DNA from: Bacillota bacterium
GTDB taxonomy: Bacteria; Bacillota; Sulfobacillia; JABLXB01
Direction of reading: 5' to 3'
DNA: 64,000 bases
Assembly (NCBI GenBank): GCA_013178305.1
Contig: JABLXB010000001.1
Coordinates: 812,253-876,252, forward strand
Shown: one piece after another, positions 13,955-28,179 of the stretch
Layout of the letters: each line of letters starts with the position of its first letter
How positions within the stretch are numbered: position 1 is the stretch's first letter
Program-made: the position numbers and the translations under genes
The notes under the pieces: generated by a model
What the model was told of the DNA's origin: nothing
Databases searched by the model: none
What the model saw: the letters and a program-made list of their open reading frames with translations, nothing else

Positions 13955-15340
13955 CTAGACTCCCAGGCTCTGCTTCAATATCTGTGTTGCTGCCTCTGGA
14001 TGGGACAACCCGAGCACTCCAACGGAAGACATGACGTAGTCATTATCGATGAGCACCTCCGCCGAGGACGGGTACAGCGCCTGCCCGCCCCACGCTCCGG
14101 CGCAAGCCACGCGCTCCAGTATCGTGCCGATGATGCCGCGGCCCCCCGCCAGCCTGGCCAGCGCCCCACCCGTGCCGATTACCCATTTTACCCGCGTGAG
14201 GTCCTTGCCCTCGGCAATTCTGGACATCCCCGAGTATCCGGCGACGGTCCGCACTACCCCCGCGTGGCGCTGCAAGGCGACCCGGGCGCACTCAAGCGCC
14301 AGCCTCTCCACGAGCGCGGTCTCCGCCGGCGTCTCGGGAATGGCGTGGCCGGCGGAGACCATCGATTCCAGCAGGGACCGGGAATCCGCCCCCATCTCGC
14401 GGTCGAGCAGGCCCCAGCCGATCCGCTCCGCGACGTTCGCCGCATTGACGAAAACCCCGAGGTCGCCTTCCACAGTCCGCTTGGCGAGCGGCTCGGGTGA
14501 AGAAAGTATCTTGCTTATCTCCTCCGAGCCCTCGGTCACGGAATGGACGTCGGTGGTGGCGCCGCCGACGTCCAGCACGACAAGATCGCCGATCTCGCGA
14601 TACAGGAGTCCGGCCGCGTTCATGACGGCGCCAGGGGTGGGTACGATCGCGCCGTCTACCATGTCCCTGATCTTCTCCATTCCGGGGGCGACCACTATGC
14701 GCTCCTCGAATACGCGCTGGATGGCCCGCCTGGCGGGTTCCACGTTCAGGTGATCGATCCTGGGGTAGACGTTGGCCACGGGCATCACCCGAAGACCCGC
14801 CCCGTGCAGGATCGAGGTTACCTCCTCGCGCGCGGCCACGTTGCCAGCGTATACGACGGGCGCATGAAGCCGCAGGGATGCGATGACGCGGGCGTTGTGC
14901 ACGACGGTATGGCGCTCACCGTGGTCGACCCCACCGGCCAGGAGGATGATACTGGGGCGAATCCTGGCGAGGGTCTCACCATCCCGGGGGGTCATAGGCC
15001 CCGCCGTAATCATCCTGACGATGGCGCCGGCGCCGAGCGCCGCCTCGCGCGCGGCGCGGGCGGTCATTTCGTAAGCCAGGCCGTGCACGGTCATGCGCAG
15101 GCCACCGGCCGCGCTTGAAGACGCGAGCATGGAGTCCCACGTAAGCCTCGCGCCAAGGGAATCCTCGAGGGATTTCACCGCCTCTTGCAGTCCTGCGGTT
15201 ACGTCGCCCTCCAGCACGGTTGTGCGGGCGATCCCCTGTCCCACGAGGCGCGACCGGCCGCTCCCGGCGAATACGCCGCTGAACGCGTTGACCAGAGTCG
15301 TGGTGCTCCCGACCTCGGCTACGAGGACGTCGACTCTCAA
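13955..15340 (-). CDS. MutL/GlmL-like ATPase, probable ornithine aminomutase reactivase
   Basis: A 461-residue member of the actin/Hsp70-fold MutL family found beside glutamate mutase and related B12 mutases. It starts VLVAEVGSTTTLVNAF (phosphate-1-like loop). Other family blocks are IILLAGGVDHGE, the phosphate-2-like LVVLDVGGATTDVHS and VIGTGGALARL. It is the last gene of the ord-ort-ora operon; its TTG start overlaps the oraE stop by four bases. A role in swapping damaged cobalamin out of OraE is inferred from the family and position. It is not the mismatch-repair MutL. Confidence 0.85.
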   Translation of the reverse strand: MRVDVLVAEVGSTTTLVNAFSGVFAGSGRSRLVGQGIARTTVLEGDVTAGLQEAVKSLEDSLGARLTWDSMLASSSAAGGLRMTVHGLAYEMTARAAREAALGAGAIVRMITAGPMTPRDGETLARIRPSIILLAGGVDHGERHTVVHNARVIASLRLHAPVVYAGNVAAREEVTSILHGAGLRVMPVANVYPRIDHLNVEPARRAIQRVFEERIVVAPGMEKIRDMVDGAIVPTPGAVMNAAGLLYREIGDLVVLDVGGATTDVHSVTEGSEEISKILSSPEPLAKRTVEGDLGVFVNAANVAERIGWGLLDREMGADSRSLLESMVSAGHAIPETPAETALVERLALECARVALQRHAGVVRTVAGYSGMSRIAEGKDLTRVKWVIGTGGALARLAGGRGIIGTILERVACAGAWGGQALYPSSAEVLIDNDYVMSSVGVLGLSHPEAATQILKQSLGV

Positions 15341-17715
15341 GAGGGGGGTATCCCCCGGCGGGCGGGGAGGTTCCTCACGCGGTGCCTCACGATGAAACTT
15401 GCGACGTCGCTGCCTTTCGTGCCACGCCCGAACCCCGCGTCCATCCCGCAGTCCCGCGCTACTTCGTCGGAGATCTGCGTACCCCCGGCGATCAGGAGCA
15501 CCCTGTCACGTATACCCTTCTCCACGCAGGCGTCGTGAAGCCTCCTTAGATTGATGCGGTGTATGCCGGCGTGAGTGATTATCGTGGAGGCGAGTATCGC
15601 TTCAGCGTCGATCTCAACGGCTGCGTCGACCAGCTTCTCGATGGTGACCGATGTCCCAAGATAATGGCATTCGATTCCGTACTTTTCGATGCCGCCGTGC
15701 TTCACGTCGATGATCTCGCGCATTCCCGCCGAGTGTTCGTCCTCCCCGATCGTGGCGGCGACTACCCTGAGCGGCCGCTCCCCGACACTGCGCCTGATTT
15801 CGTCCTCCGGCAGGCGCGCCTGCTTCTCCGGTATAACCAGGTCGCGGGGATCGATGTCGTACTCCACCGTGCCCTTCACCTCGACCAGCGTCCCCTCGGC
15901 GGGGTGCATCGCCTGGCTGTGGACGACCTCGGCCTCGCGGATGCCCATGCGCCGGGCGATCTCCAGCGCGGCGTGTTGAGCCGTCTCCTCCGCGGCGGGA
16001 AGGAACAACCGCAGCTCGACGTAGCCGTCAGCGTACCACTGTACCTCGGGCCTGATCAGCCCGGACTCCCTGTGTCCGGCTGTCCTCGCAAGCCGCTCGT
16101 TCACGTTGTCCTCTTCGTCGAGCTCGTCTATGAACCTTATCTTCGAGGGGTCGCACAGTGTGCAGCCGTCGATGAGGTCGCAGGGCCGCGTGGCTGGTTC
16201 CATGCCCGGCCCCGCGCCGGTCATCGCACCCGGCCGCGCGCCCGGGTATTCCGCGCCGCGCGGCAGATTGTTCACGCCGAAATGGTAGCAGACAGGGGCC
16301 ATGTAATCGGGGTCCCTCGGGACCACCGTGCCCGCGCCGGCTCCCCCGCCGGGAGAGCGAGGGATTCCGTCGCCGGCGCGCTCGGGGTAATACCCGGAGT
16401 CAACGAAGAAGCCGCGCGCGACCGCTTCGAAGTAGCCGGTCTCGGCGATTTCCTCCATGAACAGGAGCGCCCTCTCCTTGATTTCTCGCACCCTCGCCCC
16501 AAGCGGGCCGTCCATGTTGAGCGAGACCATCTCGCGGAGGCCGTCCATACCGGCGAGCGCCTGCTTCGCCGTGTCGATCGCCGCGATGTTGTTGAAGTGC
16601 CACGGCACCTGCCGGCCCTCGTCGGGCGTGATCGTGCTCTGGATGTCCGCCGAGGTGAGCCTGGTAATCAGCAGGTTGAGGACGTGCGTGACGGTCGCTT
16701 CGCGCTGGTCCGATTCGATGTAGCGGGTGTTCATCTGGGCTCTGAACTTGAAGCCCCGGAATAACTCGCGGACCGCAACGGCGTAGGGCAGGTCGATCCT
16801 GACGTTCGGGGCGGGCGGCGCGGTGGGCGGGACCGTCGAAAGGCAGATGTTCTCCTGCGGCACGCCCGCCCTCATGGAGAAGTAGCAGTTGATTGCGTGC
16901 TGCACGATGAGCTCGGGCATCACCTTCCACGCCTCCCGTGCGGTGGCGTTGGCGTTGTGAGCCCCGTCGATCTGTATCATGCCCTGCGATGCCATTATCG
17001 CCTTGGCCGCGGCGGCGTCGACGAATGACCGCAGCATGTTTACGTTCCTGTACAGTACGTTGTACTGCGGGTCCTGGTGGGCGCCGTTCACGCCTTCCTC
17101 CGCGAACAGCGTGGCCATCTCCGGACCCGCGACCCCTGACACGTAAGAGTGGAAGTTGATCGGCCGGCCCACTTCATCTTCGATGAGATCGAGCGCCTTC
17201 CGCGTGGCACGTAGCTGCTTCCTCGTTATGGGCACACCACCGACGCCCTCGGGCGTGCCTTCTATCAGCCCGTCGAAATGGCTCTGCCCCGCGGTGCGAA
17301 TCACCATGATATGGTCGGCGCCGTGCCACGCCGCCATCCTCATTCTCCTGAGGTCGTCCTCGAACCGGCCCGAGGCGATCTCGGTCGTGACCACGCAGTC
17401 CGGCTGAGGGTCGATCCCGCCGAAGTTCCTCGCTGCGGGGAGCGGAATACCGCGTGGCAACTGCTCGCTTGTCTCCAGGTAGTCGAACTGCCACATCCGG
17501 CGCGGCTCGCGGGCGCCAGCCCTCCACGTCCACCCTTTCCGCCTCGGGCGGTAGTGCTCGAGACCCTCCAGGATCGCGTACACGTCGAGCTTCCTCGACG
17601 GGTCGAGGACGCCCGGGGGAACCTGGCCGGCGTGACCGGCTGGGCCGGAGGGGCCCGCCGGCTGTGTCGACGGCTCCAGCGGCTGCCCCGCACCGGCCGG
17701 ACCTTCGGCGTTCAT
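15337..17715 (-). CDS. oraE: D-ornithine 4,5-aminomutase large (B12/PLP) subunit
   Basis: Converts D-ornithine to (2R,4S)-2,4-diaminopentanoate with adenosylcobalamin and PLP. The N-terminal half is the TIM-barrel mutase (GQSHFDGLIEGTPEGVGG, NFHSYVSGVAGPEMA). The C-terminal Rossmann domain carries D659-x-H661-x2-G664 (GEDEHSAG) and the probable PLP lysine K672 (DVKHGGIEKYG). At 792 residues it is slightly longer than usual, with Pro/Gly-rich inserts at the N-terminus and near residues 460-510. The start overlaps oraS by four bases and the end overlaps the MutL-like gene. Confidence 0.96.
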   Translation of the reverse strand: MNAEGPAGAGQPLEPSTQPAGPSGPAGHAGQVPPGVLDPSRKLDVYAILEGLEHYRPRRKGWTWRAGAREPRRMWQFDYLETSEQLPRGIPLPAARNFGGIDPQPDCVVTTEIASGRFEDDLRRMRMAAWHGADHIMVIRTAGQSHFDGLIEGTPEGVGGVPITRKQLRATRKALDLIEDEVGRPINFHSYVSGVAGPEMATLFAEEGVNGAHQDPQYNVLYRNVNMLRSFVDAAAAKAIMASQGMIQIDGAHNANATAREAWKVMPELIVQHAINCYFSMRAGVPQENICLSTVPPTAPPAPNVRIDLPYAVAVRELFRGFKFRAQMNTRYIESDQREATVTHVLNLLITRLTSADIQSTITPDEGRQVPWHFNNIAAIDTAKQALAGMDGLREMVSLNMDGPLGARVREIKERALLFMEEIAETGYFEAVARGFFVDSGYYPERAGDGIPRSPGGGAGAGTVVPRDPDYMAPVCYHFGVNNLPRGAEYPGARPGAMTGAGPGMEPATRPCDLIDGCTLCDPSKIRFIDELDEEDNVNERLARTAGHRESGLIRPEVQWYADGYVELRLFLPAAEETAQHAALEIARRMGIREAEVVHSQAMHPAEGTLVEVKGTVEYDIDPRDLVIPEKQARLPEDEIRRSVGERPLRVVAATIGEDEHSAGMREIIDVKHGGIEKYGIECHYLGTSVTIEKLVDAAVEIDAEAILASTIITHAGIHRINLRRLHDACVEKGIRDRVLLIAGGTQISDEVARDCGMDAGFGRGTKGSDVASFIVRHRVRNLPARRGIPPS

Positions 17716-18074
17716 TGGATCTCAAACTCCTTCTGCACCTCGTCCCAGCCCCTGCCGGACGCCAGATCGGCGCCCGCTTCGTTTATGCTGCACCCCCGCC
17801 GGCACGCCAGGCGGTAGACCGCGTTTCCGGCGCCTTTTCCGAGCAGGCCTTTCTCCACGCACTTTTCCACAATCGCTCGCGCTTCGAGACTGGAGAGCCC
17901 CATCCTCAGCAGCACCGACCTTTCAATGGAGGGCGATGTGTGCGTCCTCGCGAGCTCGATGAGCGGGTCGACCACCCGCGCTGTGGCTGACCAGAACCGC
18001 CTGTGGAGTTCATCATCGGAGAGGCCGGCGATGGATTTACGCCTCTGTTCGAAATTGTCTGCGCGACGGACCAA
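17712..18074 (-). CDS. oraS: D-ornithine 4,5-aminomutase small subunit
   Basis: The 120-residue partner of OraE. The family signature is clear: RRADNFEQRRKSIAGLSDDE, then SPSIERSVLLRMGLSSLEA and GLLGKGAGNAVYRLA. The TTG at 18074 is used because an in-frame stop (the ortB stop) lies only 12 bases upstream and RADNF aligns with the usual second to seventh residues. GGTGGGGGG upstream serves as a ribosome site. It is sandwiched between ortB and oraE in a tightly packed operon. Confidence 0.94.
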   Translation of the reverse strand: MVRRADNFEQRRKSIAGLSDDELHRRFWSATARVVDPLIELARTHTSPSIERSVLLRMGLSSLEARAIVEKCVEKGLLGKGAGNAVYRLACRRGCSINEAGADLASGRGWDEVQKEFEIQ

Positions 18075-18083
18075 CTCCCAGGT

Positions 18084-19604
18084 TCACCCCCCACCTGCGA
18101 TAGTCACGCCCAGGTCACTGAGGACGGAGGTCACGAATCCATCGTCTCTCCGGGTCTCCTCGGCGAGGAACCGCACATCTTCCACAGTCACCTCGGACAC
18201 CCCCGAGTTCCGGACCGCATTCCTTATGAGCGATGCGCGGATGCGGTCCAGTTCCAGGTCGCGGACGGACATCTGGGCGGGGTGTTCGGGTATTATTATG
18301 GAGCGGCCGGGCACGCTGCCGGCCGGATTCCCTCGCCTGACCTCCACCCCGTTCCGCCGGGCGAAAGTGAGTTGCGCGGTGGGGTGTTTCCCCGCGCCCG
18401 TGTATTCTGTCTCCTGCACGACGATGATCTGGTCCCCGTCCATCTCCCGTGCGATCGCGACCGCGGCTGCCAGCGACGTGTTGCCCGCCGGACCCCGCTC
18501 CAGCCCCTCGAGCGACGCGAGCATCTCGGTGGCGTAGAACGCCTCGCCCTGAGTCACCGTTACATACCTGTCCATGTACCTCAGTGGCCTCGCCGCGTTG
18601 CGCGGGACGTCCGACCTGTCAGGCCAGGTGGCGAACGGGATGCCGAAGCCAGTGTGGCCGGTTGTAAAGGACTTCCTGTTGAAGTCCGAGTCCGACGCCA
18701 TGTGCAGGCCCGCCAGGTCGACGCTTACCCCGATGACCGTGGGACGCGCGCTCCGGCTGGGACGCGCGCTCCCGGCGATCGTCTTCAGTATTCCCCTCGC
18801 CGTCCCGGTCACGTTGCCGCCGCCGGCGTGGGTGATGCAGACCGCGTCCGGGTTTCGCCCGTACTCCCGCCTGACCTGCTCCACGACCTCGGCACCAAGG
18901 GTCTCAACGCCCGCGATCCCGAACGGTGTGTACAGCGATGCGTTGAAGTAGCCCGTTTCCTCGAGTAGCCTCAGGAAAACGTAGAACAGCTCCGGCCCCA
19001 CGCTCAGTTGCACGACCTCCGCGCCGTAGGCCTCGCACGCGCGGGCCTTCTCCATTATCTCGGGCTGGCCGATCCCCCGGCTGTCGTACGCCTCCTGCAC
19101 AACGATGCACTTGAGGCCGCGGACGGCCGCCTGCGAGGCGACGGCGGCTCCGTAGTTGCCGCTTGTGGCTGCTATCACACCCTTGAACCCAAGCCTCTTC
19201 GCATGGTAGACTGAAACGCTGGCGCGCCTGACCTTGAAACTTCCGGAGGGGTTGCACGCCTCGTCCTTTACCAGGATGGTAGCACCTTTGCCGGGGGGCG
19301 AGATGCTCCTGACGAGCCTGGTTATGTTCCTGAGTTCGATCAGCGGTGTGTTGCCCACGCCGGTCTCGGCCTGGATACCCCTCACCTCGTCCAGCGTGTA
19401 CCCTGCCTCGCGCATCATCCCCTCGTAATCGAACGAGAGGCGCCCTGTCGAGAACCGGTCGTAGTCGATCCCGACCGAACGAAGGATGATCTCGGGCCGC
19501 CGCGCCATCACCGCCTGGTAGCTGTACATCCCCTGGCGCTGCGCGTCGACCGGCTCTTGCCACGCGGGATTGAACGGAGAAGCGCCAGAGGCGGCGGCGC
19601 TCAT
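18084..19604 (-). CDS. ortB: 2-amino-4-oxopentanoate thiolase, beta (PLP) subunit
   Basis: With OrtA, cleaves 2-amino-4-oxopentanoate with CoA to give alanine and acetyl-CoA, the final step of oxidative ornithine fermentation. A fold-type II PLP enzyme related to threonine synthase. The PLP lysine is K124 in NPSGSFKVRRAS, followed by the ATSGNYGAAVA phosphate loop and THAGGGNVTGTARG. At 506 residues it is slightly long. The ATG overlaps the ortA stop by four bases. It lies immediately upstream of oraS. Confidence 0.93.
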   Translation of the reverse strand: MSAAASGASPFNPAWQEPVDAQRQGMYSYQAVMARRPEIILRSVGIDYDRFSTGRLSFDYEGMMREAGYTLDEVRGIQAETGVGNTPLIELRNITRLVRSISPPGKGATILVKDEACNPSGSFKVRRASVSVYHAKRLGFKGVIAATSGNYGAAVASQAAVRGLKCIVVQEAYDSRGIGQPEIMEKARACEAYGAEVVQLSVGPELFYVFLRLLEETGYFNASLYTPFGIAGVETLGAEVVEQVRREYGRNPDAVCITHAGGGNVTGTARGILKTIAGSARPSRSARPTVIGVSVDLAGLHMASDSDFNRKSFTTGHTGFGIPFATWPDRSDVPRNAARPLRYMDRYVTVTQGEAFYATEMLASLEGLERGPAGNTSLAAAVAIAREMDGDQIIVVQETEYTGAGKHPTAQLTFARRNGVEVRRGNPAGSVPGRSIIIPEHPAQMSVRDLELDRIRASLIRNAVRNSGVSEVTVEDVRFLAEETRRDDGFVTSVLSDLGVTIAGGG

Positions 19605-19909
19605 TTCTGTGCCTCCGCCTCGCGCTCCAGGAGGGCCCGAAACTCCTCCCCCGCGACCAGGAGTTCGAGCACCGGCTGCCCGAAATCATGGGGGTAAGCG
19701 GGATTTATCGCGACGAGTGTCCCTTCCACCAGGCGGCCGGTCATGGTCCTCACGGTCGCGTGGTCTCCAAGCATGGCGTCGTGCTCCAGGAACCCTTTGA
19801 CCCGCATCTCGAGCGGCACACCTTGCGTGTCCTCCGGGACCTGCGGCGCCCTTTCGCCCGGCTTCAGCAGGACGTCATACACCTGTACCCAGTCCCCTGC
19901 CCTGCCCAT
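19601..19909 (-). CDS. ortA: 2-amino-4-oxopentanoate thiolase, alpha subunit
   Basis: A 102-residue small subunit of the OrtAB thiolase. The conserved blocks are GDWVQVYDVLLKPGERAPQV, VPLEMRVKGF, TGRLVEGTL and NPAYPHDFG. The ATG shares a base with the ord stop (TGATG), and the 3' end overlaps ortB by four bases, so translation of the three genes is probably coupled. Confidence 0.93.
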   Translation of the reverse strand: MGRAGDWVQVYDVLLKPGERAPQVPEDTQGVPLEMRVKGFLEHDAMLGDHATVRTMTGRLVEGTLVAINPAYPHDFGQPVLELLVAGEEFRALLEREAEAQK

Positions 19910-21084
19910 CAGTCGACCACCCCGGTTATGCCCTCGGCGCCAACGGATCTGGTGGTGTCCTGCGGCCGCGCCGCTACCCCGCCGGCCGCCGCCCCGCCGG
20001 CCCCTGCCCCGGCCACGATTTCGTCACCGGGGTAGCGGTAGGCCGGCATCACCCCGAGGACTTCGCGGATGTCGGACATCCATGCCCTCGGGAGCGGGAG
20101 GTCGTTCATGGTGACGATCCCCGCCGGGGCGTTCAGCACGTGGGGGATCATGTTCACCGCCACTGCGATAGTGCCGGTCCCGCCCGGGATTTCGGGCTTG
20201 ATGCTGAGATTGATCCCCGGTTCGCCCTCAATGCTTATGTAGTCGCCGGTCTCGATGCCTTCGACCTCGGGGTGTATCTGCTGCGGGTGTTCGAGGGTAA
20301 TTACCTCCTTGCCGTCCACGAAACCCTTCCCAATGTGCTTGCAGCCCGCCACCATGCCCGGAGCGACTTGCACGTGCGGTGTAGCCCTCCGGACGGTAGA
20401 GATGATGGGCTCGCGCGTTTCCTCCACCCTGTCGAGTCTCCAGCCCAGGGCGCGTGCTATCAGCGCCATGGACTCGGGGAACCCTATGTGCCCCACAATA
20501 GTCCCGCGCTTGACCCCTTCCTGGAACTCCTCGGGGCTGGTCCCCACCCCCTGCGTCCGCATGACCGTCGGCCCGAAAGGTGAAAGGTCGTTTATCCGGG
20601 AGGCGTGAATGCGGTCAACCCTGGTACAGGCGCCGGTGAGTGTCACAATCAGCGCGTCGAGAACGAATCCGGGGTTCACGCCCGTCCCGAGTATACTAAC
20701 TCCGTGTTCCTTAGCCGTTGCGTCGAGCGAGGCGGCCAGGTGAGGGCTACCCATCCAAGGGTACGCCATCTCCTCCGCGATGGAGATCACGTCGAGGGAC
20801 GCCCTTGCGCACTCCTCGAGTTGCTGGTAGACCTCCTTCACGAACGAGCCGGTGGAGTGGATTACGATGTCCGCGCCGGCCTTGCCGATGACCGTTCCGG
20901 GGTCCGTAGTGACTGTTACGCCGGTACGTTCGTCGAGGTCCAGGGCCTCGCCGAGGTCCATACCCGCCTTGAGCGGATTCGCCCTGATCGCCCCGACGAT
21001 CTCGACGCCGGGCCGCCGCATGAGGACCCTGCCGACACCCGACCCCATCGCGCCGAGTCCCCACAGGATAACCCTGATGGACAC
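19909..21084 (-). CDS. ord: 2,4-diaminopentanoate dehydrogenase
   Basis: Oxidatively deaminates 2,4-diaminopentanoate to 2-amino-4-oxopentanoate with NAD(P)+. A DapB-like dinucleotide-binding start (VILWGLGAMGSGVGRVL) is followed by IHSTGSFVKEVYQQL, NPGFVLDALIVTLTG and RINDLSPFGPTVM, all typical of Ord. At 391 residues it carries an extra Ala/Gly-rich tail of roughly 40 residues. GTG start with GGGGGGCGG upstream. It is the first gene of the ord-ortAB-oraSE-mutL operon. Its usual neighbour orr is separated from it here by a 3.7-kb island. Confidence 0.94.
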   Translation of the reverse strand: MSIRVILWGLGAMGSGVGRVLMRRPGVEIVGAIRANPLKAGMDLGEALDLDERTGVTVTTDPGTVIGKAGADIVIHSTGSFVKEVYQQLEECARASLDVISIAEEMAYPWMGSPHLAASLDATAKEHGVSILGTGVNPGFVLDALIVTLTGACTRVDRIHASRINDLSPFGPTVMRTQGVGTSPEEFQEGVKRGTIVGHIGFPESMALIARALGWRLDRVEETREPIISTVRRATPHVQVAPGMVAGCKHIGKGFVDGKEVITLEHPQQIHPEVEGIETGDYISIEGEPGINLSIKPEIPGGTGTIAVAVNMIPHVLNAPAGIVTMNDLPLPRAWMSDIREVLGVMPAYRYPGDEIVAGAGAGGAAAGGVAARPQDTTRSVGAEGITGVVD

Positions 21085-21158
21085 AGTACCGCCCCCCGAA
21101 TCATCTTTCCCCGATCAGTGGTTTCCAACGAAGGGGCGGTCTAAACGCAATGTGAGTC

Positions 21159-21177
21159 ATGCAGCCTTGCGGCCCGT
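21159..21177 (-). promoter_or_regulatory. Candidate sigma-54 promoter of the ord operon
   Basis: The minus strand shows GGGCCGCAAGGCTGCA, which has GG-N10-GC spacing, about 75 bases before ord. Both boxes deviate from TGGCACG/TTGCA. A nearby GGCACG lacks a -12 GC at the right distance. Weak compared with the other three promoters. Confidence 0.33.
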
Positions 21178-21208
21178 GTGAAGAGCGGTGGCTATTGCGT
21201 GCCGGCCT

Positions 21209-21701
21209 TCACCTTATGTGATAGGGTCCCCGAAGGTCTATGTCGTCGACGAAAACCTCGGCGTAAAGGCGAATCTGCTCGATTAGATCCGTTACCGCCT
21301 CATGCCCATCTCGGCCATTCGCAGCCAAGCCCAGCGGGTCATACCGCACTGTTACAGACCCATCGTCTTCGGGCAATAGTACGTACGTCTTTCCACGAGG
21401 TCTGGCCGCATCCAGTATCGCGCAGTATCGCGCGCCCTCGGGCTACACATTCAATGACTTTCGCAAGGGGATAAGTCGCCTGGGGTCCGTTCCAGTCCGC
21501 CACAAGGGGCGCCATGAAGTTTGGCGCCATGTGGATGAACAAGGCCGTGTTCAAACCGTATGCATAAGCCGAAAGCATAACGACGAGATCCCTCGCAGCC
21601 TCCTCCATGAAATGCTGCGCCGAGCCAGCCTGACCAAGGATGAGTTCGCCCGGGCGCTGGAATAAATAACAATCAAGCGATGCAGTGCGAGCACGACCCA
21701 A
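21209..21701 (-). pseudogene. Frameshifted gene of unknown function (10-bp tandem duplication)
   Basis: The minus strand is open from 21701 (TTG) and reads LILGQAGSAQHFMEEAARDL, then YPLAKVIECVARGRAIL. A 10-bp tandem duplication then shifts the frame and the open frame stops soon after. Removing one copy restores a single reading frame, ...RAILDAARPRGKTYVLLPED, then SVTVRYDPLGLAANGRDGHE and LIEQIRLYAEVFVDDIDLRG, ending at TGA 21209. The intact protein would be about 160 residues. I do not recognise the family. Loss of function by slippage is inferred, though slippage could also restore it. Confidence 0.6.
21414..21433. repeat. Perfect 10-bp tandem duplication
   Basis: AGTATCGCGC occurs twice in direct succession on the plus strand. 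The extra copy is exactly what puts the surrounding minus-strand gene out of frame. Confidence 0.9.
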
Positions 21702-21919
21702 CAGCGTGAGTCCTCGTCATCTCAAGAGCCTGGACACCCGGGCTGGTAGTTGACCCTCCAAGACTGGAGTCCCCTGACGCCCTCGCTGGCTGAGCCGCCA
21801 TTTCGAAGCCAGCATGCCCGGGCTATCGATCGGTCAGCGTTTTCTCGCTCCAGCGTAGTTTGATACCCGGGCTGCACGAATCTGACAACAGATTGCAATC
21901 TTCTCCATTTGGTGAATTA

Positions 21920-21928
21920 TGGTATGAT
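21920..21928 (+). promoter_or_regulatory. Extended -10 promoter of the ATPase module
   Basis: TGGTATGAT is an extended -10 element about 40 bases before the 59-residue gene. No good -35 hexamer is seen. The wider gap (21702-21966) is AT-richer than its flanks and holds no other gene I can support. Confidence 0.5.
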
Positions 21929-21966
21929 TAAGTTGTACGATCATATTCCCACGGGGGGCATTTGGC

Positions 21967-22146
21967 ATGGATGGCCAAGATGACATCACGTCGAAGAGGC
22001 AGGGTTTCATAGACAGTCTCATTGGCCAACTTAAGGACCCGATACACAAGCGGCTGGTTGAGGTTTACGCAGGTTCAGAACCAATAACTGGCGTGCAGGC
22101 CGAGCTTGACGAGATTCTCGTCGAGGTGCTGCGCCATGAAGATTGA
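21967..22146 (+). CDS. Small 59-residue protein paired with a Rad50/RecF-like ATPase
   Basis: Starts MDGQDDITSKRQGFIDSLIG and ends LDEILVEVLRHED. It is charged, probably all-helical, with no signal peptide or membrane segment. GGGGGG lies upstream of the ATG. Its end overlaps the ATPase gene start by 11 bases (ATGAAGATTGA), so the two are almost certainly translated together. Small helical partners encoded directly before SMC-like ATPases are a pattern seen in defence and DNA-maintenance modules. I cannot assign a function to this one. Confidence 0.7.
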   Translation: MDGQDDITSKRQGFIDSLIGQLKDPIHKRLVEVYAGSEPITGVQAELDEILVEVLRHED

Positions 22147-24622
22147 GAGCATTACAATTCAGGGATTCCGAGGCTTCAACGAGGCAAGAACGTTCACTTT
22201 TCACAACGCCCTTACGCTCATCCATGGCCCCAACAGCTACGGGAAGACCAGCATATCCGAGGCTTTGGAGTGGCTCCTCTATGGAGTGACGTCTAAAGTT
22301 GAGAAGGCCGAGTCCAAGGATGAGTTTAAGGGCTGCTACCGAAACTGCCATCTAGCGCCCAGCCTCGCCCCGTTTGTTGAGGCAGTTTTCGTCGATGGAT
22401 CTAACAGATATGAGCTGCGGGGAGATCTGGGAGAGAACGACCAGATCACGCGCTCCTTTAACGGCTCGAAGGTCGACAATTGGCCGCTCGGCTTCAGTGC
22501 AACGCCGAAGCCATTCGTTCTCCAACATGCCCTGAAGTACTTACTCTGGGCTAAGCCTGATGAGAGGTTCCAGGCCTTTGCCCGCCTTCTCGGACTGGAG
22601 GACCTCGATCAAGCCCAAAAGGATTTCACGTCTCTGGCTACCAAACCCGAAGCCAGAGTCCCACGCGAGGTTAAGGAGGTCCTCGACAATGCATCTCGCA
22701 TCGAGGCCAGCCTTGCCTTGAGAGTGCCATTCGCTGCCATATCTAAGGCTCTGAAAAAGGGGAAGGCGGGCTTGCCAGAGGTGTATCGCCTGTTACTCGC
22801 GGAGGCGAAGAAACGGGCGCCTCAGGGCACTCCTGACGATCGTTTGGGCCTAGAGCTGAATCGACAGTGCGAAGAAGCCAGGAGCAGGGTGCTGGGAGGT
22901 CGCCTGTCTATAGAGGGATTTTCCGAACAGGATATCAAAGCCAATGCGGACGATGAACAATACTTTCTCAGCCTGCTTTCGGAGGAGTTCGCATCCAAGT
23001 ACATGGAGTTGGCGGCTCTTGATACTGTGAGTAGCCTCATGGAAATCGCTCAATTCCTTGGCGTGGGCCTACGCCTCACAGAACGGAACCCGGACATCTG
23101 CCCGTTTTGCGGTCAAGACATGGGTTCCAGCCTTCTCGAGCATGTCCGAGAGCAGCATGCGGAGGTCTCTCGGCAAACCGAGCATGTCAGAGGGCTTACA
23201 AAGCAACGTGCAGAACTCGAGTCGCTCTTGACTAATCTGGAAACCCGAATCTCGTCATTCCATACCCGCCACGTCAGGAAGGCTGCAAACCTACCCAGCA
23301 GTGAATCGATGATGGCTCAAATCAAGACCATCCTCGGCACGCAAAACGAGCACCATTTCAAATCGCTCGAGAAGGCTGTCCAGCAGATAGAACCTAGTAA
23401 GCAGAATCTGGGGAAAGCGTACGCCAAAGTCTCCGAGGCGTTCAAGGCTCTCAATCTTCGAATAGGCAGCGGGACCCCGGACTCTTCTCTTCTAAAGGAT
23501 CTGGCGGGGTCACTTAACACTTACATCGTGACTGCCAGGAGCTTCTCGGACTTGGTTGCCAATATTTTGCAGCCGGTTACGGATGTCATTAGGATCCTGC
23601 AAGCCGAGATAGACAAGGCTGCAGGAACTGAGGAAATCGCAGCGCTTGTAGATCTGTTCCAGCACTGGGGCACGATGAAAAAGGCGTGTGCGATTCGTGA
23701 CATCTTGGAGGGCCTCAAGGATCTGAAGAAGTCCGTCGACACATACGTTGCCAGCACCGTGTATTCTCTGGTGTCAACCGATCTGACGACAAAGGTAATG
23801 AAGTGGTATGACCTGATAAGGACGACGGTCGATCCTGACGTGCACTTCAATGGTTTCGACATGGAACGAACCAAGTCAGGTGAGCTGAAAGCGCGCCGAA
23901 TACAGGTCAAGGCAGCCTCTTATGGAAAGGACCTGGTAAGTGCCGTCTCGTCACTTAGCGAATCGAAACTCAATGCTCTGGGCCTCGCTATTAGCATATC
24001 AACCAACCTATCCAAAGACTGCCCCTTCGGCTTCCTCTTTATAGACGACCCCATCCAGTCGTGGGATGATCAACACGAAACGCAGTTCATCGAGGTGATC
24101 CTCAAGCTAGTCGAGGAAGGCAAGCAGGTTATCCTATTATCCCATCAGTCCCCATGGCTTGACAGCGTTCGAACGCGTTGTCGAATGTTGAATGGGCGCT
24201 ATTATCAGATAACGGGATACACTAGACTGGGTCCGCACGTTCAGGGGACTTCGTGGGAGAAGTGGAGTAACCGCCTGGATCTGGTCGACGCTATACTGAA
24301 GGACCCGGGCGCACTCGAGGTGAAGATGCAGCAGGCAGAGGAAGAGATACGGCTGGTCGTGACTGATGTGACTTCCCAGATCTATCTAAGACACAAGGGA
24401 CAATGGAAAGACCCGGGCAAACTTAACTCTAAAGATGTTGCCAGACTACTGACGGAATGCGGAGTCGATTCAGGTCTAGTCCAGCGGATAGTCATGACAT
24501 TCAAGACTACAGACGAAGCCCACCATGTGTCGTCCAAGTATCAGCCCGACAGACAGAGGCTAAGGTGCTATCATTCATGGGCTCACGAACTCGGGAAGCT
24601 GCTGGATGACCGAAAGCCTTGA
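22136..24622 (+). CDS. AAA/ABC-type ATPase with long coiled coil and CxxC hook (Rad50/RecF-like)
   Basis: An 828-residue ATPase of the SMC/RecN/Rad50 class. The N-terminus is MKIESITIQGFRGFNEARTF with Walker A GPNSYGKTS (about 31-39). Middle helices hold a CPFCGQDM hook. The C-terminus has a signature-like LSESKLNALGLAI, Walker B FLFIDDPIQSWDD and an H-loop LLSHQS, followed by about 150 extra residues. Proteins of this kind act on DNA ends, often in phage defence; no nuclease domain is visible here. I take the ATG at 22136, which has GAGGTG upstream and overlaps the 59-residue gene. The module is on the opposite strand to the catabolic genes around it and uses less GC-biased codons, suggesting transfer. 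Confidence 0.85.
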   Translation: MKIESITIQGFRGFNEARTFTFHNALTLIHGPNSYGKTSISEALEWLLYGVTSKVEKAESKDEFKGCYRNCHLAPSLAPFVEAVFVDGSNRYELRGDLGENDQITRSFNGSKVDNWPLGFSATPKPFVLQHALKYLLWAKPDERFQAFARLLGLEDLDQAQKDFTSLATKPEARVPREVKEVLDNASRIEASLALRVPFAAISKALKKGKAGLPEVYRLLLAEAKKRAPQGTPDDRLGLELNRQCEEARSRVLGGRLSIEGFSEQDIKANADDEQYFLSLLSEEFASKYMELAALDTVSSLMEIAQFLGVGLRLTERNPDICPFCGQDMGSSLLEHVREQHAEVSRQTEHVRGLTKQRAELESLLTNLETRISSFHTRHVRKAANLPSSESMMAQIKTILGTQNEHHFKSLEKAVQQIEPSKQNLGKAYAKVSEAFKALNLRIGSGTPDSSLLKDLAGSLNTYIVTARSFSDLVANILQPVTDVIRILQAEIDKAAGTEEIAALVDLFQHWGTMKKACAIRDILEGLKDLKKSVDTYVASTVYSLVSTDLTTKVMKWYDLIRTTVDPDVHFNGFDMERTKSGELKARRIQVKAASYGKDLVSAVSSLSESKLNALGLAISISTNLSKDCPFGFLFIDDPIQSWDDQHETQFIEVILKLVEEGKQVILLSHQSPWLDSVRTRCRMLNGRYYQITGYTRLGPHVQGTSWEKWSNRLDLVDAILKDPGALEVKMQQAEEEIRLVVTDVTSQIYLRHKGQWKDPGKLNSKDVARLLTECGVDSGLVQRIVMTFKTTDEAHHVSSKYQPDRQRLRCYHSWAHELGKLLDDRKP

Positions 24623-24649
24623 CGAAGAGGTGGTGCTGCTAGGAGAGGA

Positions 24650-24687
24650 ATACAGACTCCGGCGCCACAAAGCGCCGGAGTCTGTAT
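24650..24687. terminator. 16-bp perfect hairpin between the ATPase gene and orr
   Basis: Arms of 16 bp (ATACAGACTCCGGCGC and its complement) with a CACAAA loop lie just after the ATPase stop and before the convergent orr stop. There is no U run on either strand. It probably acts as a bidirectional 3' end or marks the island border. A 27-codon frame starting at 24605 runs through it; I do not regard that frame as a gene. Confidence 0.6.
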
Positions 24688-24763
24688 AGGCAGCGACCTT
24701 TCGCTCAGTATCAAGAACGCAACCTGGGGTGGATGCCCGTCCGGGTGAAGGCCTGCCGAACAC

Positions 24764-25840
24764 CTACGGTGAGCGTGAGATTACGGCCTTCTCCACGTAC
24801 TCCGACGTCATCAGCCGGAGCATCGCGGGGTATTGTACCCAGAACTCCACGAAGCCCCCGGGCCGCACCGGTGCGGCCGCGTCGGTCACGTCCAGAATGA
24901 GATGGTCGCTCGATGCGCCGATTATCGAGACGCCGGGGTCGCACGGCTTCAGGCCGCCGATCTCGACGTCCTGCTTACCGACTGCGGCGATGGCCCGCAC
25001 CCGTACCCCTCTGTCGACGAACGCGGGCTTGAGGCCGAACGCGTCAACCCCGGTTGGCCCCTCGGGCCTGGAGGGCTTGTGCTGCACCTCGATGACCTCG
25101 GCAACCAGCCTGAACGTGTCGCTCCGGGTCCCCGGGACGACGCGCTGATTCGACGTGTCGGTCCCGTTCAGTATGGCCTCGCCTATCCGAAGGTGCGTCA
25201 CGCCCGCAGGCATTTCGCCTGACTCCATGAGGATTGTGGTCGCGGTGTTCCCGCCAGAGACACCAACGGGGAACCCCAACTCCCGGCCAACCCCGGCAGC
25301 CAGATCCACCAGAACCTGCACGTTCTCCCTGGTAGGTAGCACGCCGCTGAGGCAGGCCACGTTGGTGCCGAGCGCCTCGAGCCTGACACCCTTGAACGAC
25401 GCGATCTGCCGGCACACACTCCGCACGCGCTCCGGCATCAAGCCCTCACGACGCTCCCCGACGTCAACCATGAGCGTGACGCGATGCATGCGCCCGATCG
25501 CAGCCGCCCGTTCGCCGATAGCGCGGATCACTTCCGGTTCAGAATTCAGGCTGTGGTCCGCAAGGGATACGAGTTCGTCGAGTTCCGACGGGGATGGCAA
25601 CCGGATCAACATCAGCTCAGTTGTTATCCCCGCCCGCCGCAGCCCGGCCAGGTTGACGAGCCTGGAGTCGGCCAGCATTGAAACCCCGCCGCGGAGCATG
25701 GCTCCCGCGACGGCGGGGTGGCCGCACGCACCCTTGGTGACGCCGATGACAGCGATCCCCCACCGTGCGCACTCGTTCACGACCCTGCGTGCGTTCTCCT
25801 CGATGCGTCCAGGGTATATCTCTATCCTCGGGTATCCCAC
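24764..25840 (-). CDS. orr: Ornithine racemase
   Basis: Interconverts L- and D-ornithine, supplying D-ornithine to OraSE. A fold-type III PLP enzyme of the alanine-racemase-like group: the PLP lysine is K36 in VIGVTKGACGHP, followed by LADSRLVNLAGLR, MVDVGERREGLMP and GVSGGNTATT. Length 358 residues. GTG start with GGGAGGTG upstream. It is the last gene of the corrinoid-mttB-kamA2-EamA-orr operon rather than the first gene of the ord operon, which lies beyond the 21-24.7 kb island on the same strand. Other racemase substrates cannot be ruled out. Confidence 0.88.
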   Translation of the reverse strand: MGYPRIEIYPGRIEENARRVVNECARWGIAVIGVTKGACGHPAVAGAMLRGGVSMLADSRLVNLAGLRRAGITTELMLIRLPSPSELDELVSLADHSLNSEPEVIRAIGERAAAIGRMHRVTLMVDVGERREGLMPERVRSVCRQIASFKGVRLEALGTNVACLSGVLPTRENVQVLVDLAAGVGRELGFPVGVSGGNTATTILMESGEMPAGVTHLRIGEAILNGTDTSNQRVVPGTRSDTFRLVAEVIEVQHKPSRPEGPTGVDAFGLKPAFVDRGVRVRAIAAVGKQDVEIGGLKPCDPGVSIIGASSDHLILDVTDAAAPVRPGGFVEFWVQYPAMLRLMTSEYVEKAVISRSP

Positions 25841-25895
25841 GCCTGCACCTCCCGCACCCGCGCGGCGGCCCGGCGGGCGGCGCTAACGCCTGTCA

Positions 25896-26843
25896 TCAGT
25901 CGTCGGCGCCCGTCTTCGCGCCGCTCTTTGCGCTCGTTTCCACCGCAGCGGCGGCCCCGAAACCTTCCACCTGGGACATGATCATACCCAGGAAGATGAG
26001 TGCGTCACCGACGAACCCCTTCAGTCCGATGGCCTCGTGGAGGATGAAGTAGCTCGCGATGGCTGCGAATACCGGCTCGGTGGCGAGGAGCAGCGCCGCG
26101 CGAGTCGGCTCAGTGACCTGCTGCGCCCAGTTCTGGACCAGCATCGCTCCTATCACGTTGCACACCGTAAGATAGACCATACATGCGAGCGGGGCCGCCG
26201 GAAGTACGCCCGGCAGCGGCTCAAGGAACAAACCCACCACGACTGTCAGGATGCCGGCGAAACCTATCTGCAGTGTCGCGATCGTCACCGGATCCTCGGA
26301 GGGCGCGAACTTACCGACCGCTATGATGTGCATCGCAAACCCAACAGCGCACAGCGTCCCCAGCACCTCACCCAGACCGAATCTGAGGCCCCCGGGCTCA
26401 AGGCAGAGCACCCCGAGGCCCACCAGCGAAGTGACGGCCCCCGCCGTTGAGAGCCAGCCGGGCTTCTTCCGCAGCAACACCGCCTGGAACATCGGAACGA
26501 AGACCACGTAGAGGCCGGTCAGGAATGCGACCATGTTGACCGAGGTGAGCTGCATAGCGATGGTCTGGGGCATGTACGCGATGCCGAGGAAGAAGCCGAT
26601 GATGGCGCCCGCCTTGATCGTGGACCACTTCGCCCTGAGTATCCTCGAAGGGAACAGCGCGGTCAGCAGCACGAAACTGGCCACGAAGCGCAGCCAGAGG
26701 AAGGTCAGGGGGCCGAGCCAGCCGAGGACGTATTTCACGGCCACGAAGCTCGCGCCCCACGAGACAGCCACCATTAACAGCAGGAACTCACCGAGCACTC
26801 GTCGTTTACCGTAACCCGGACTCAAATCGGAACCCGGACCCAC
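25896..26843 (-). CDS. EamA/DMT-family transporter
   Basis: A 315-residue membrane protein with about ten predicted helices in two EamA repeats (VLGEFLLLMVAVSWGASFVA at the start, LLATEPVFAAIASYFILHEA in the second half). The family mostly exports or imports small metabolites such as amino acids. The GTG at 26843 has GAGGAG upstream. It sits between kamA2 (12 bases away) and orr, so the cargo is probably a basic amino acid or a derivative from this pathway. Direction of transport is unknown. Confidence 0.88.
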   Translation of the reverse strand: MGPGSDLSPGYGKRRVLGEFLLLMVAVSWGASFVAVKYVLGWLGPLTFLWLRFVASFVLLTALFPSRILRAKWSTIKAGAIIGFFLGIAYMPQTIAMQLTSVNMVAFLTGLYVVFVPMFQAVLLRKKPGWLSTAGAVTSLVGLGVLCLEPGGLRFGLGEVLGTLCAVGFAMHIIAVGKFAPSEDPVTIATLQIGFAGILTVVVGLFLEPLPGVLPAAPLACMVYLTVCNVIGAMLVQNWAQQVTEPTRAALLLATEPVFAAIASYFILHEAIGLKGFVGDALIFLGMIMSQVEGFGAAAAVETSAKSGAKTGADD

Positions 26844-26855
26844 CCAATCAGCTCC

Positions 26856-28112
26856 TCAGGCCTTCCTACGCTTCAGCCTCTCGGTATCCTTCGGTTCAAG
26901 GCTCGACGCCTGGTCGTTGAACAGCTTCGCCAGGCCTATCGAGTACTCGTCCGCCTTGCCCTCGCAGTAATCGCAGCCCTCAGGGCAGTTCGACTGGGCG
27001 TCTTCCGGCTCGGTGTACGCGCAGATAACGCCCTCGTAGTTCCGGAGGATGACCTTGTTGTCGCTCATGGATATGAGATATTGGGGCATGATAGGTATCT
27101 TTCCTCCACCGCCCGGGCCGTCGAGCGCGAAAACCGGCACCGCGAAGCCGGAAGTGTGGCCCCTGAGCATCTCGACGATCTGGATACCCTTCGCCACCTT
27201 CGTACGGAAATGCTCGAGCCCCCAGCTCAGGTCGCACTGATACATGTAGTACGGCCTGACGCGTATCTTGACGAGCTCGTGGACCAATTTCTTCATAACG
27301 GTGGGGCAGTCGTTGATCCCCCTCATCAGCACGGTCTGATTACCCAGCGGGATGCCGGCGTCCGCCAGCATGTTGCACGCGCGCGACGAATCGGGGGTGA
27401 TCTCAGACGGGTGGTTGAAGTGCACGTTCAGCCACATCGGGTGGTACTTCTTGAGCATACTGCATAGCTCGGGCGTGATCCTCTGCGGGAGCACAACCGG
27501 CGCGCGCGAACCCAACCTCACTATTTCGACGTGGGGTATCTCGCGGATCTGCCTGATGACGTACTCGAGCCGGTCGTCGGGCAGAAGGAGTGGATCGCCG
27601 CCCGATAGCAGCACGTCGCGTACCTGAGGAGTCCTCCGGACGTACTCGATGCCGGCCTCGATCCTTTCAAGCGGCGCGGCCTCGTCCTGCACACCGACAA
27701 GCCTCCGTCTCGTGCACTGCCTGCAGTACATCGAGCACTGGTCGGTCACCAGGAGAAGCACCCTGTCAGGATAACGGTGCGTCAGGCCGGGTACAGGTGA
27801 GTCCAGGTCCTCGTGCAGCGGGTCCGCCATGTCCGCCGGGGAGTGGGCGAGTTCGTGAATCGTCGGCACGCCCTGCCGCCTGATCGGGCACTGCGGGTTG
27901 GCCGGGTCCATCAGCGACACCCAGTACGGGGTGATCGCCATGCGCAGCGTCTTCAGGATCCGCCTTATCGCCTCTTCCTCTTCAGGCTCGAGTGGTATCG
28001 CCTGTTTGAGTTCCTCCAGCGTCGTGACCCTGTTGCGCACCTGCCAGCGCCAGTCGTTCCACTCCTCAGGAGTGACGTCGCGCCACAGCGGTATGTCCTT
28101 GTATGACCTCAT
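26856..28112 (-). CDS. Lysine 2,3-aminomutase paralogue (KamA2)
   Basis: A 418-residue radical-SAM/PLP aminomutase, alignable without gaps over most of its length to the KamA at 8447-9703. C126, C130 and C133 bind the cluster; the PLP lysine is K338. Both substrate-binding acidic residues are kept (D294 and D331), so an L-lysine-type substrate is expected. The context changes VVDAPGG to ALDGPGG. The C-terminal Cys motif differs (CPEGCDYC). The ATG at 28112 has GGAGGTAAC upstream. It is co-directional with the upstream mttB and downstream transporter and orr, not with the lysine operon. It may process lysine released by demethylation, or ornithine-like substrates; both are inference. Confidence 0.9.
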   Translation of the reverse strand: MRSYKDIPLWRDVTPEEWNDWRWQVRNRVTTLEELKQAIPLEPEEEEAIRRILKTLRMAITPYWVSLMDPANPQCPIRRQGVPTIHELAHSPADMADPLHEDLDSPVPGLTHRYPDRVLLLVTDQCSMYCRQCTRRRLVGVQDEAAPLERIEAGIEYVRRTPQVRDVLLSGGDPLLLPDDRLEYVIRQIREIPHVEIVRLGSRAPVVLPQRITPELCSMLKKYHPMWLNVHFNHPSEITPDSSRACNMLADAGIPLGNQTVLMRGINDCPTVMKKLVHELVKIRVRPYYMYQCDLSWGLEHFRTKVAKGIQIVEMLRGHTSGFAVPVFALDGPGGGGKIPIMPQYLISMSDNKVILRNYEGVICAYTEPEDAQSNCPEGCDYCEGKADEYSIGLAKLFNDQASSLEPKDTERLKRRKA

Positions 28113-28179
28113 AATGGTTACCTCCACGTTGATGCCGGGCAATCTGCGGGCAGGCCGCCGGATAGGCTACCGGGAAGAC

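Follow-up and report, generated by a model that had tools for sequence, protein, structure and literature searches.

The gene pair

The stretch of DNA that we analysed, all 64,000 nucleotides of which we call the window, contains two overlapping genes on its forward strand. The smaller (positions 21967 to 22146) starts with ATG and encodes a helical protein of 59 residues; a small ORF is kept at this place upstream of all the unfused homologues examined, and corresponds in position to LmuC or to an antitoxin. The larger (22136 to 24622) runs from an ATG at 22136 to a stop at 24622 and encodes a Rad50/LmuB-like ABC ATPase of 828 residues with a predicted HEPN-like domain at its C-terminus, an assignment based on Pfam, PADLOC, AlphaFold2 and Foldseek. 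The genes share 11 bases (22136 to 22146), and the same exact overlap is found in three homologous loci (L035, L036 and L037). A GAGG sequence inside the small gene (22123 to 22126) resembles a ribosome-binding site serving the ATPase. Downstream of the ATPase stop there is a perfect 16-bp inverted repeat with a 6-nt loop (24650 to 24687, no strand assigned), a possible terminator that lacks a T run.

The ATPase has the following motifs, all encoded on the forward strand. Walker A is GPNSYGKTS (residues 31-39, positions 22226 to 22252). The zinc hook is CPFC (residues 322-325, 23099 to 23110), and CPxC is present in every listed member of the family. The ABC signature is LSES (residues 607-610, 23954 to 23965), reading LSE[SCG] or FSEG in relatives. 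Walker B and the D-loop form FIDDPIQ (residues 635-641, 24038 to 24058), and IDDP[IV]Q is common to the LmuB of three-gene loci. The H-loop histidine is His670 (24143 to 24145). An earlier note on this DNA had described both ORFs, their overlap, the CPFC hook and the FIDDPIQ Walker B, and all of these were confirmed; its estimate of about 150 residues beyond the H-loop agrees well with the 158 counted after H670.

The D-D-P of Walker B places Asp at the position of the catalytic Glu. Most ABC ATPases have Glu there. The Q of FIDDPIQ lies three residues further on; we therefore reject its identification with the Glu-to-Gln change reported for LmuB, a change at the position that Asp occupies here.

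An insertion in a D-ornithine degradation operon

The pair lies within a segment (21085 to 24763, no strand assigned) that has been inserted into an operon for the degradation of D-ornithine. The segment is flanked by ord and an orr-like racemase gene, both of them named by NCBIfam. The insert has a GC content of 0.543, compared with 0.65-0.66 in the two flanking genes, and the GC3 of the cassette is 0.58-0.63, compared with 0.81-0.85 in its neighbours. In a genome of the same family (G326, locus L062) the racemase and ord genes are 256 bp apart and the cassette is absent. The window cassette is thus foreign, and was acquired as a unit. It is a lone insertion, with no defence island around it. 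No RNA was found in the insert using Rfam.

The surrounding cluster (15337 to 28142, reverse strand) comprises OraE, OrtB, OrtA, Ord and the Orr-like racemase, followed by lysine 2,3-aminomutase, and is split by the cassette on the opposite strand. Within the insert, a short ORF on the reverse strand (21209 to 21376) matches a PHD-like antitoxin (PF12910, E 5e-6) over the C-terminal part of the latter, and is probably what is left of a toxin-antitoxin module.

Conservation of the two-gene layout

A small ORF overlaps the start of the ATPase gene by 11-38 bases in all eight of the loci checked first. Relatives of the window ATPase are carried on plasmids of Nitrosospira and Bradyrhizobium, each preceded by a gene of 65-66 residues with a 29-base overlap; in Bradyrhizobium a frameshift divides the ATPase ORF. 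Five further loci, each with a small ORF, came from scanning the species genomes of GTDB. These are from a Dehalococcoidia (L035, 49% identity to the window ATPase), a planctomycete (L036, 43%), two Chloroflexota (L037, 41%; L038, 34% across residues 2-586) and a member of the Chromatiales (L039), where the ATPase ORF ends abruptly next to IS21-type transposase genes. A relative from the class to which the window belongs (L040) has the layout as well, as do two haloarchaeal plasmid loci (L049 and L050). The same overlap of tiny gene and ATPase thus occurs in Chloroflexota, Planctomycetota, Proteobacteria and haloarchaea. In 10 of the 11 pairs the small gene contains a motif of the GAGG, GGAG or AGGAG type, 11-15 bases ahead of the start codon of the ATPase; the single exception is L049, which has no ribosome-binding-site-like motif there.

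The probability of finding such an ORF in a random or shuffled upstream region is 1-17% per locus, so that at least ten in succession cannot be attributed to chance. Among the codon positions, the second has the highest base identity and the third the lowest. The tiny proteins of the window clade align with the window's copy at 31-39% identity, and their profile matches that of the proteobacterial clade (hhalign P = 4e-4); comparison with the archaeal tiny proteins fell short of significance (P 0.04). The window protein has no match in Pfam, PADLOC or NCBIfam and one chance-level match to a PHROG, while tiny proteins of other members give isolated weak Pfam matches (best 1e-3). The gene pair is real, recurrent and mobile.

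A single-gene form

Other relatives consist of one gene encoding about 870-910 residues. They are found on plasmids (L051, L052 and L055), on contigs of viruses or prophages (L056-L060) and in E. coli, where 19 of 5,426 genomes have one. In place of the small gene there is an N-terminal extension, helical and about 80-90 residues long, and the ATPase part matches the profile of the window clade across 590 columns (P 2e-26). Homology between the extension and the tiny protein is not significant (hhalign P 0.38). We therefore regard the two as parallel in position, and do not take a fusion of the tiny protein to the ATPase as proven. In E. coli A33 a one-gene relative (L085:7686-10298) adjoins genes for a TerB-N protein, an ATP-binding protein and a DEAD/DEAH helicase, and the group (L085:619-10298) is possibly a further defence cluster.

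The single-gene form bears on whether the pair might be an addiction module resembling a toxin-antitoxin system, in which the ATPase-HEPN protein would be the toxin, the 59-residue protein an antitoxin translated first, and stabilization of plasmids or islands the main function. The small gene does come first and translation appears coupled, carriage on plasmids is frequent, and there is the PHD-like remnant nearby in the insert. However, in the one-gene clade the region before the ATPase belongs to the same chain, so there is no separable, unstable antitoxin in that clade, although the match between this region and the tiny protein is not significant. A Rad50-like zinc-hook ATPase would moreover be an unusual toxin. 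We consider an addiction module rather improbable.

Relationship to Lamassu, RloC and Rad50

Profile and structure searches, which the earlier note had suggested for both proteins, returned LmuB for the ATPase by profile, Rad50/SMC by fold, and no family for the tiny protein. The ATPase matches Pfam AAA_23 (2e-15), and its best PADLOC model is LmuB (PDLC03859, E 2e-33) over residues 1-680. The AlphaFold2 model has a mean pLDDT of 80, and its Foldseek matches are to Rad50 and SMC proteins. No relatives of the window ATPase were found among phages by tblastn, or among viruses in a single-protein scan.

Within the family the relationship is full-length. The profile of the window clade matches the Nitrosospira pair with P 3e-39, the pair from its own class with P 1e-35 and the archaeal pair with P 3e-20, and over this range of P the kinship of two-gene and one-gene members extends across about 600 columns. 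Matches to individual LmuB proteins of three-gene loci are significant (P 2e-12 to 7e-9), but mostly partial and over short stretches, and that to RloC has P 5e-10. In a phylogenetic tree the RloC proteins form a separate branch with 100/100 support, while the order of branching among the pairs, the one-gene forms and LmuB lacks resolution.

Lamassu consists of LmuA, LmuC and LmuB, with LmuC missing from some systems (PMC10586767). The window family resembles Lamassu and ABC-3C systems in having an LmuB-like ABC ATPase with a CPxC hook and an IDDP[IV]Q Walker B, in its defence setting, and in the small upstream gene overlapping that of the ATPase. The Walker B sequence is shared with the LmuB of three-component loci L034, L054, L043 and L047; in L033 it is LDDPVQ. 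There are also differences. No gene for an LmuA-like effector lies beside the window pair or the homologous pairs examined. The small gene takes the place of LmuC; its product, which matches nothing in Pfam, PADLOC or NCBIfam, has 59 residues compared with 176-243 for genes in the LmuC position of the Lamassu loci seen here. Lastly, the chain beyond Walker B is 191-247 residues long in the window family and 59-93 in three-gene LmuBs, the ATPase having the additional C-terminal HEPN-like domain.

RloC, whose C-terminal HEPN domain is an anticodon nuclease, likewise has an ABC head, a zinc-hook coiled coil, an IDDP Walker B and a helical C-terminal domain with conserved Arg and His. It differs in lying on another branch of the tree, in the lack of a significant profile match between the C-terminal domains, in the Glu of its catalytic triad, which is absent from the window copy, and in being described as a single protein, while the window ATPase has a partner gene. 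ABC-HEPN proteins of the APECO1_4465 and ERFG_01251 types carry a C-terminal HEPN domain on an ABC ATPase and are reported in prophages and islands; in the parts of that account available to us no tiny partner gene is described, and the comparison is with the description alone (PMC3710099). With Rad50 and SbcC the family shares the fold of head and zinc-hook coiled coil, but it is sporadic, has the added C-terminal domain and lacks an Mre11/SbcD partner; no gene for such a nuclease was found among the ORFs adjoining the window pair.

The earlier note had recognized no named system in this pair. That needs some tempering, given the LmuB profile match over residues 1-680 and the RloC-like architecture, but the pair lacks defining features of both systems. 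It is best read as SMC-like/ABC-HEPN immunity, related to Lamassu and RloC and a member of neither.

The C-terminal domain

Residues 704-828 (24245 to 24619), a region of about 125 residues that is absent from LmuB, were modelled in isolation using nine input sequences. The model is helical and confident, with pLDDT 87.8 and pTM 0.82. On searching the PDB with Foldseek, nine of the ten best folds were HEPN or Csm6, itself a HEPN RNase, with probabilities of 0.96-0.99 and TM scores of 0.51-0.61, although the E-values are weak (0.16-0.40 for these, 0.16-1 for the domain overall). A Foldseek search of viral structures gave no convincing match.

Just two positions are invariant in this domain across 13 members, Arg739 (24350 to 24352) and one His of the pair His796-His797 (24521 to 24526). 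Most members have R-x3-E followed by His, an arrangement that matches the Arg-X3-Glu-X36-52-His nuclease triad of RloC and PrrC (PMC2610378). The RloC/PrrC nucleases are assigned to the HEPN superfamily (PMC3710099). The Arg is located on helix 2, as it is in RloC and PrrC. The predicted fold together with the two invariant residues suggests that the domain is HEPN-like, and lends support to the earlier guess that the region beyond the H-loop could be an effector.

The window copy reads R739-x3-T743-X52-H796, so that the Arg and His are kept while the Glu is replaced by Thr743, with Asp744 next to it. The position of the triad Glu is similarly shifted in L036 and L037, and R-x3-E has been lost in three of the four members of the window clade. 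Nor does the window domain contain an RX4-6H motif with the canonical Arg, the residue six positions ahead of His796 being Lys790. With Thr in R-x3-E and no canonical Arg in RX4-6H, the window copy may be non-catalytic and its activity is doubtful. The C-terminal profile is not significantly related to RloC (hhalign P 0.14), and comparisons with RloC and with the C-terminal domains of other clades gave no profile link (P 0.07-0.38). A plain RloC nuclease was rejected for this domain, as it has no profile support, no significant Pfam match and no match to a PDB sequence.

The loss of R-x3-E from most of the window clade would be accommodated if the pair were a reduced Lamassu or ABC-3C system, comprising LmuB and an LmuC-like subunit, in which the C-terminal domain is a non-catalytic docking site and the complex either acts directly on DNA or uses an effector encoded elsewhere. 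LmuB is after all the best profile match, and the tiny gene has the operon position and overlap of LmuC. Yet no LmuA-like gene adjoins any copy examined, and the Arg and His are invariant across very diverged members, which a docking surface alone would not need. We think a reduced Lamassu unlikely.

Distribution and defence neighbours

The homologues are sporadic and lie on plasmids, prophages and islands. Several adjoin known defence genes: HmaA and HmaB (L036), HmaC (L049), the helicase subunit HsdR of a type I restriction-modification system (L039), a type II restriction-modification system (L052), AbiEii (L031) and an LmuB gene (L058). Other copies are next to integrases or within a prophage. 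We note that Hma genes are found beside two very distant copies, from a planctomycete (L036) and a haloarchaeon (L049).

The earlier note had thought that the pair had the look of a defence or DNA-maintenance cassette. The defence part gains support from this context, that is from sporadic and mobile occurrence, defence neighbours and the insertion, and a consistent location in housekeeping loci was not seen. Homologues adjoin defence genes at several loci, but the window copy stands alone. The overall fold, the best PDB matches to Rad50/SMC and the zinc hook would suit a horizontally spread, non-immune complex for DNA repair or maintenance, made up of a Rad50/SbcC-like protein and a small regulatory subunit. 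Such a complex would not be expected to be so sparsely distributed, being present in 2 of 154 genomes of the window's class and in 1 of 399 sampled genomes of the phylum (scoring two candidates per genome), nor to lack an adjoining SbcD/Mre11 nuclease gene while having an added HEPN-like domain and defence neighbours. A repair or maintenance function appears very improbable.

A model for the function of the cassette

The analysis establishes that the pair is conserved and mobile and has relatives among defence genes, and it defines the layout of the domains, a modelled HEPN-like fold and two invariant residues, Arg and His. The cassette is probably an immune module of bacteria and archaea; DNA sensing, activation through dimerization, RNase activity, the role of the partner and an antiviral function are inferred. 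We estimate at about an even chance that it is a horizontally acquired two-gene immune cassette, in which an ABC-HEPN protein combines sensor and effector in one chain and the tiny partner exerts control.

In such an immune cassette the ATPase would be a Rad50/LmuB-like sensor, dimerized through its CPxC zinc hook, whose heads would come together on binding ATP and aberrant DNA such as ends, hairpins or the replication intermediates of an invader. With Asp replacing the catalytic Glu, hydrolysis may well be slow, and the heads would then stay engaged for a long time. In contrast to the separate LmuA of Lamassu, the effector would act in cis, as the C-terminal HEPN-like domain of the ATPase. 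HEPN RNases act as dimers, and engagement of the heads would pair two HEPN-like domains into the dimer required. The paired domains might then cleave (or bind) RNA, possibly tRNA as RloC does, and the infected cell would cease growing as its RNA is cut. The 59-residue partner, predicted to be co-translated with the ATPase from the operon position of LmuC, is a likely regulator. It would most likely sit on the head or neck, where it would hold the ATPase in its off state or put it there.

Significance

No description of the cassette as a system was found in PADLOC or the literature searched, so that annotation would read 'AAA family ATPase' and 'hypothetical protein'. We tentatively suggest, as a possibility short of an even chance, that it represents an unrecognized family of SMC-like immune systems in bacteria and archaea. 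Sensor and HEPN RNase effector would be combined in one chain, with activity set by a co-translated subunit of about 60 residues or, in single-gene members, by a corresponding N-terminal domain, bridging Lamassu, where the effector acts in trans, and RloC, where it acts in cis with no partner. If this is correct, it would link two ways of arming Rad50/SMC-like sensors, the separate effector of Lamassu and the built-in tRNase of RloC, and would add a minimal regulatory subunit to such sensors. If activity is confirmed this would be of interest to specialists. Because sensor, effector and regulator are encoded by just two small genes (or one), the cassette would then provide a compact system in which to study how SMC-like heads recognize foreign DNA and how they switch on an effector.
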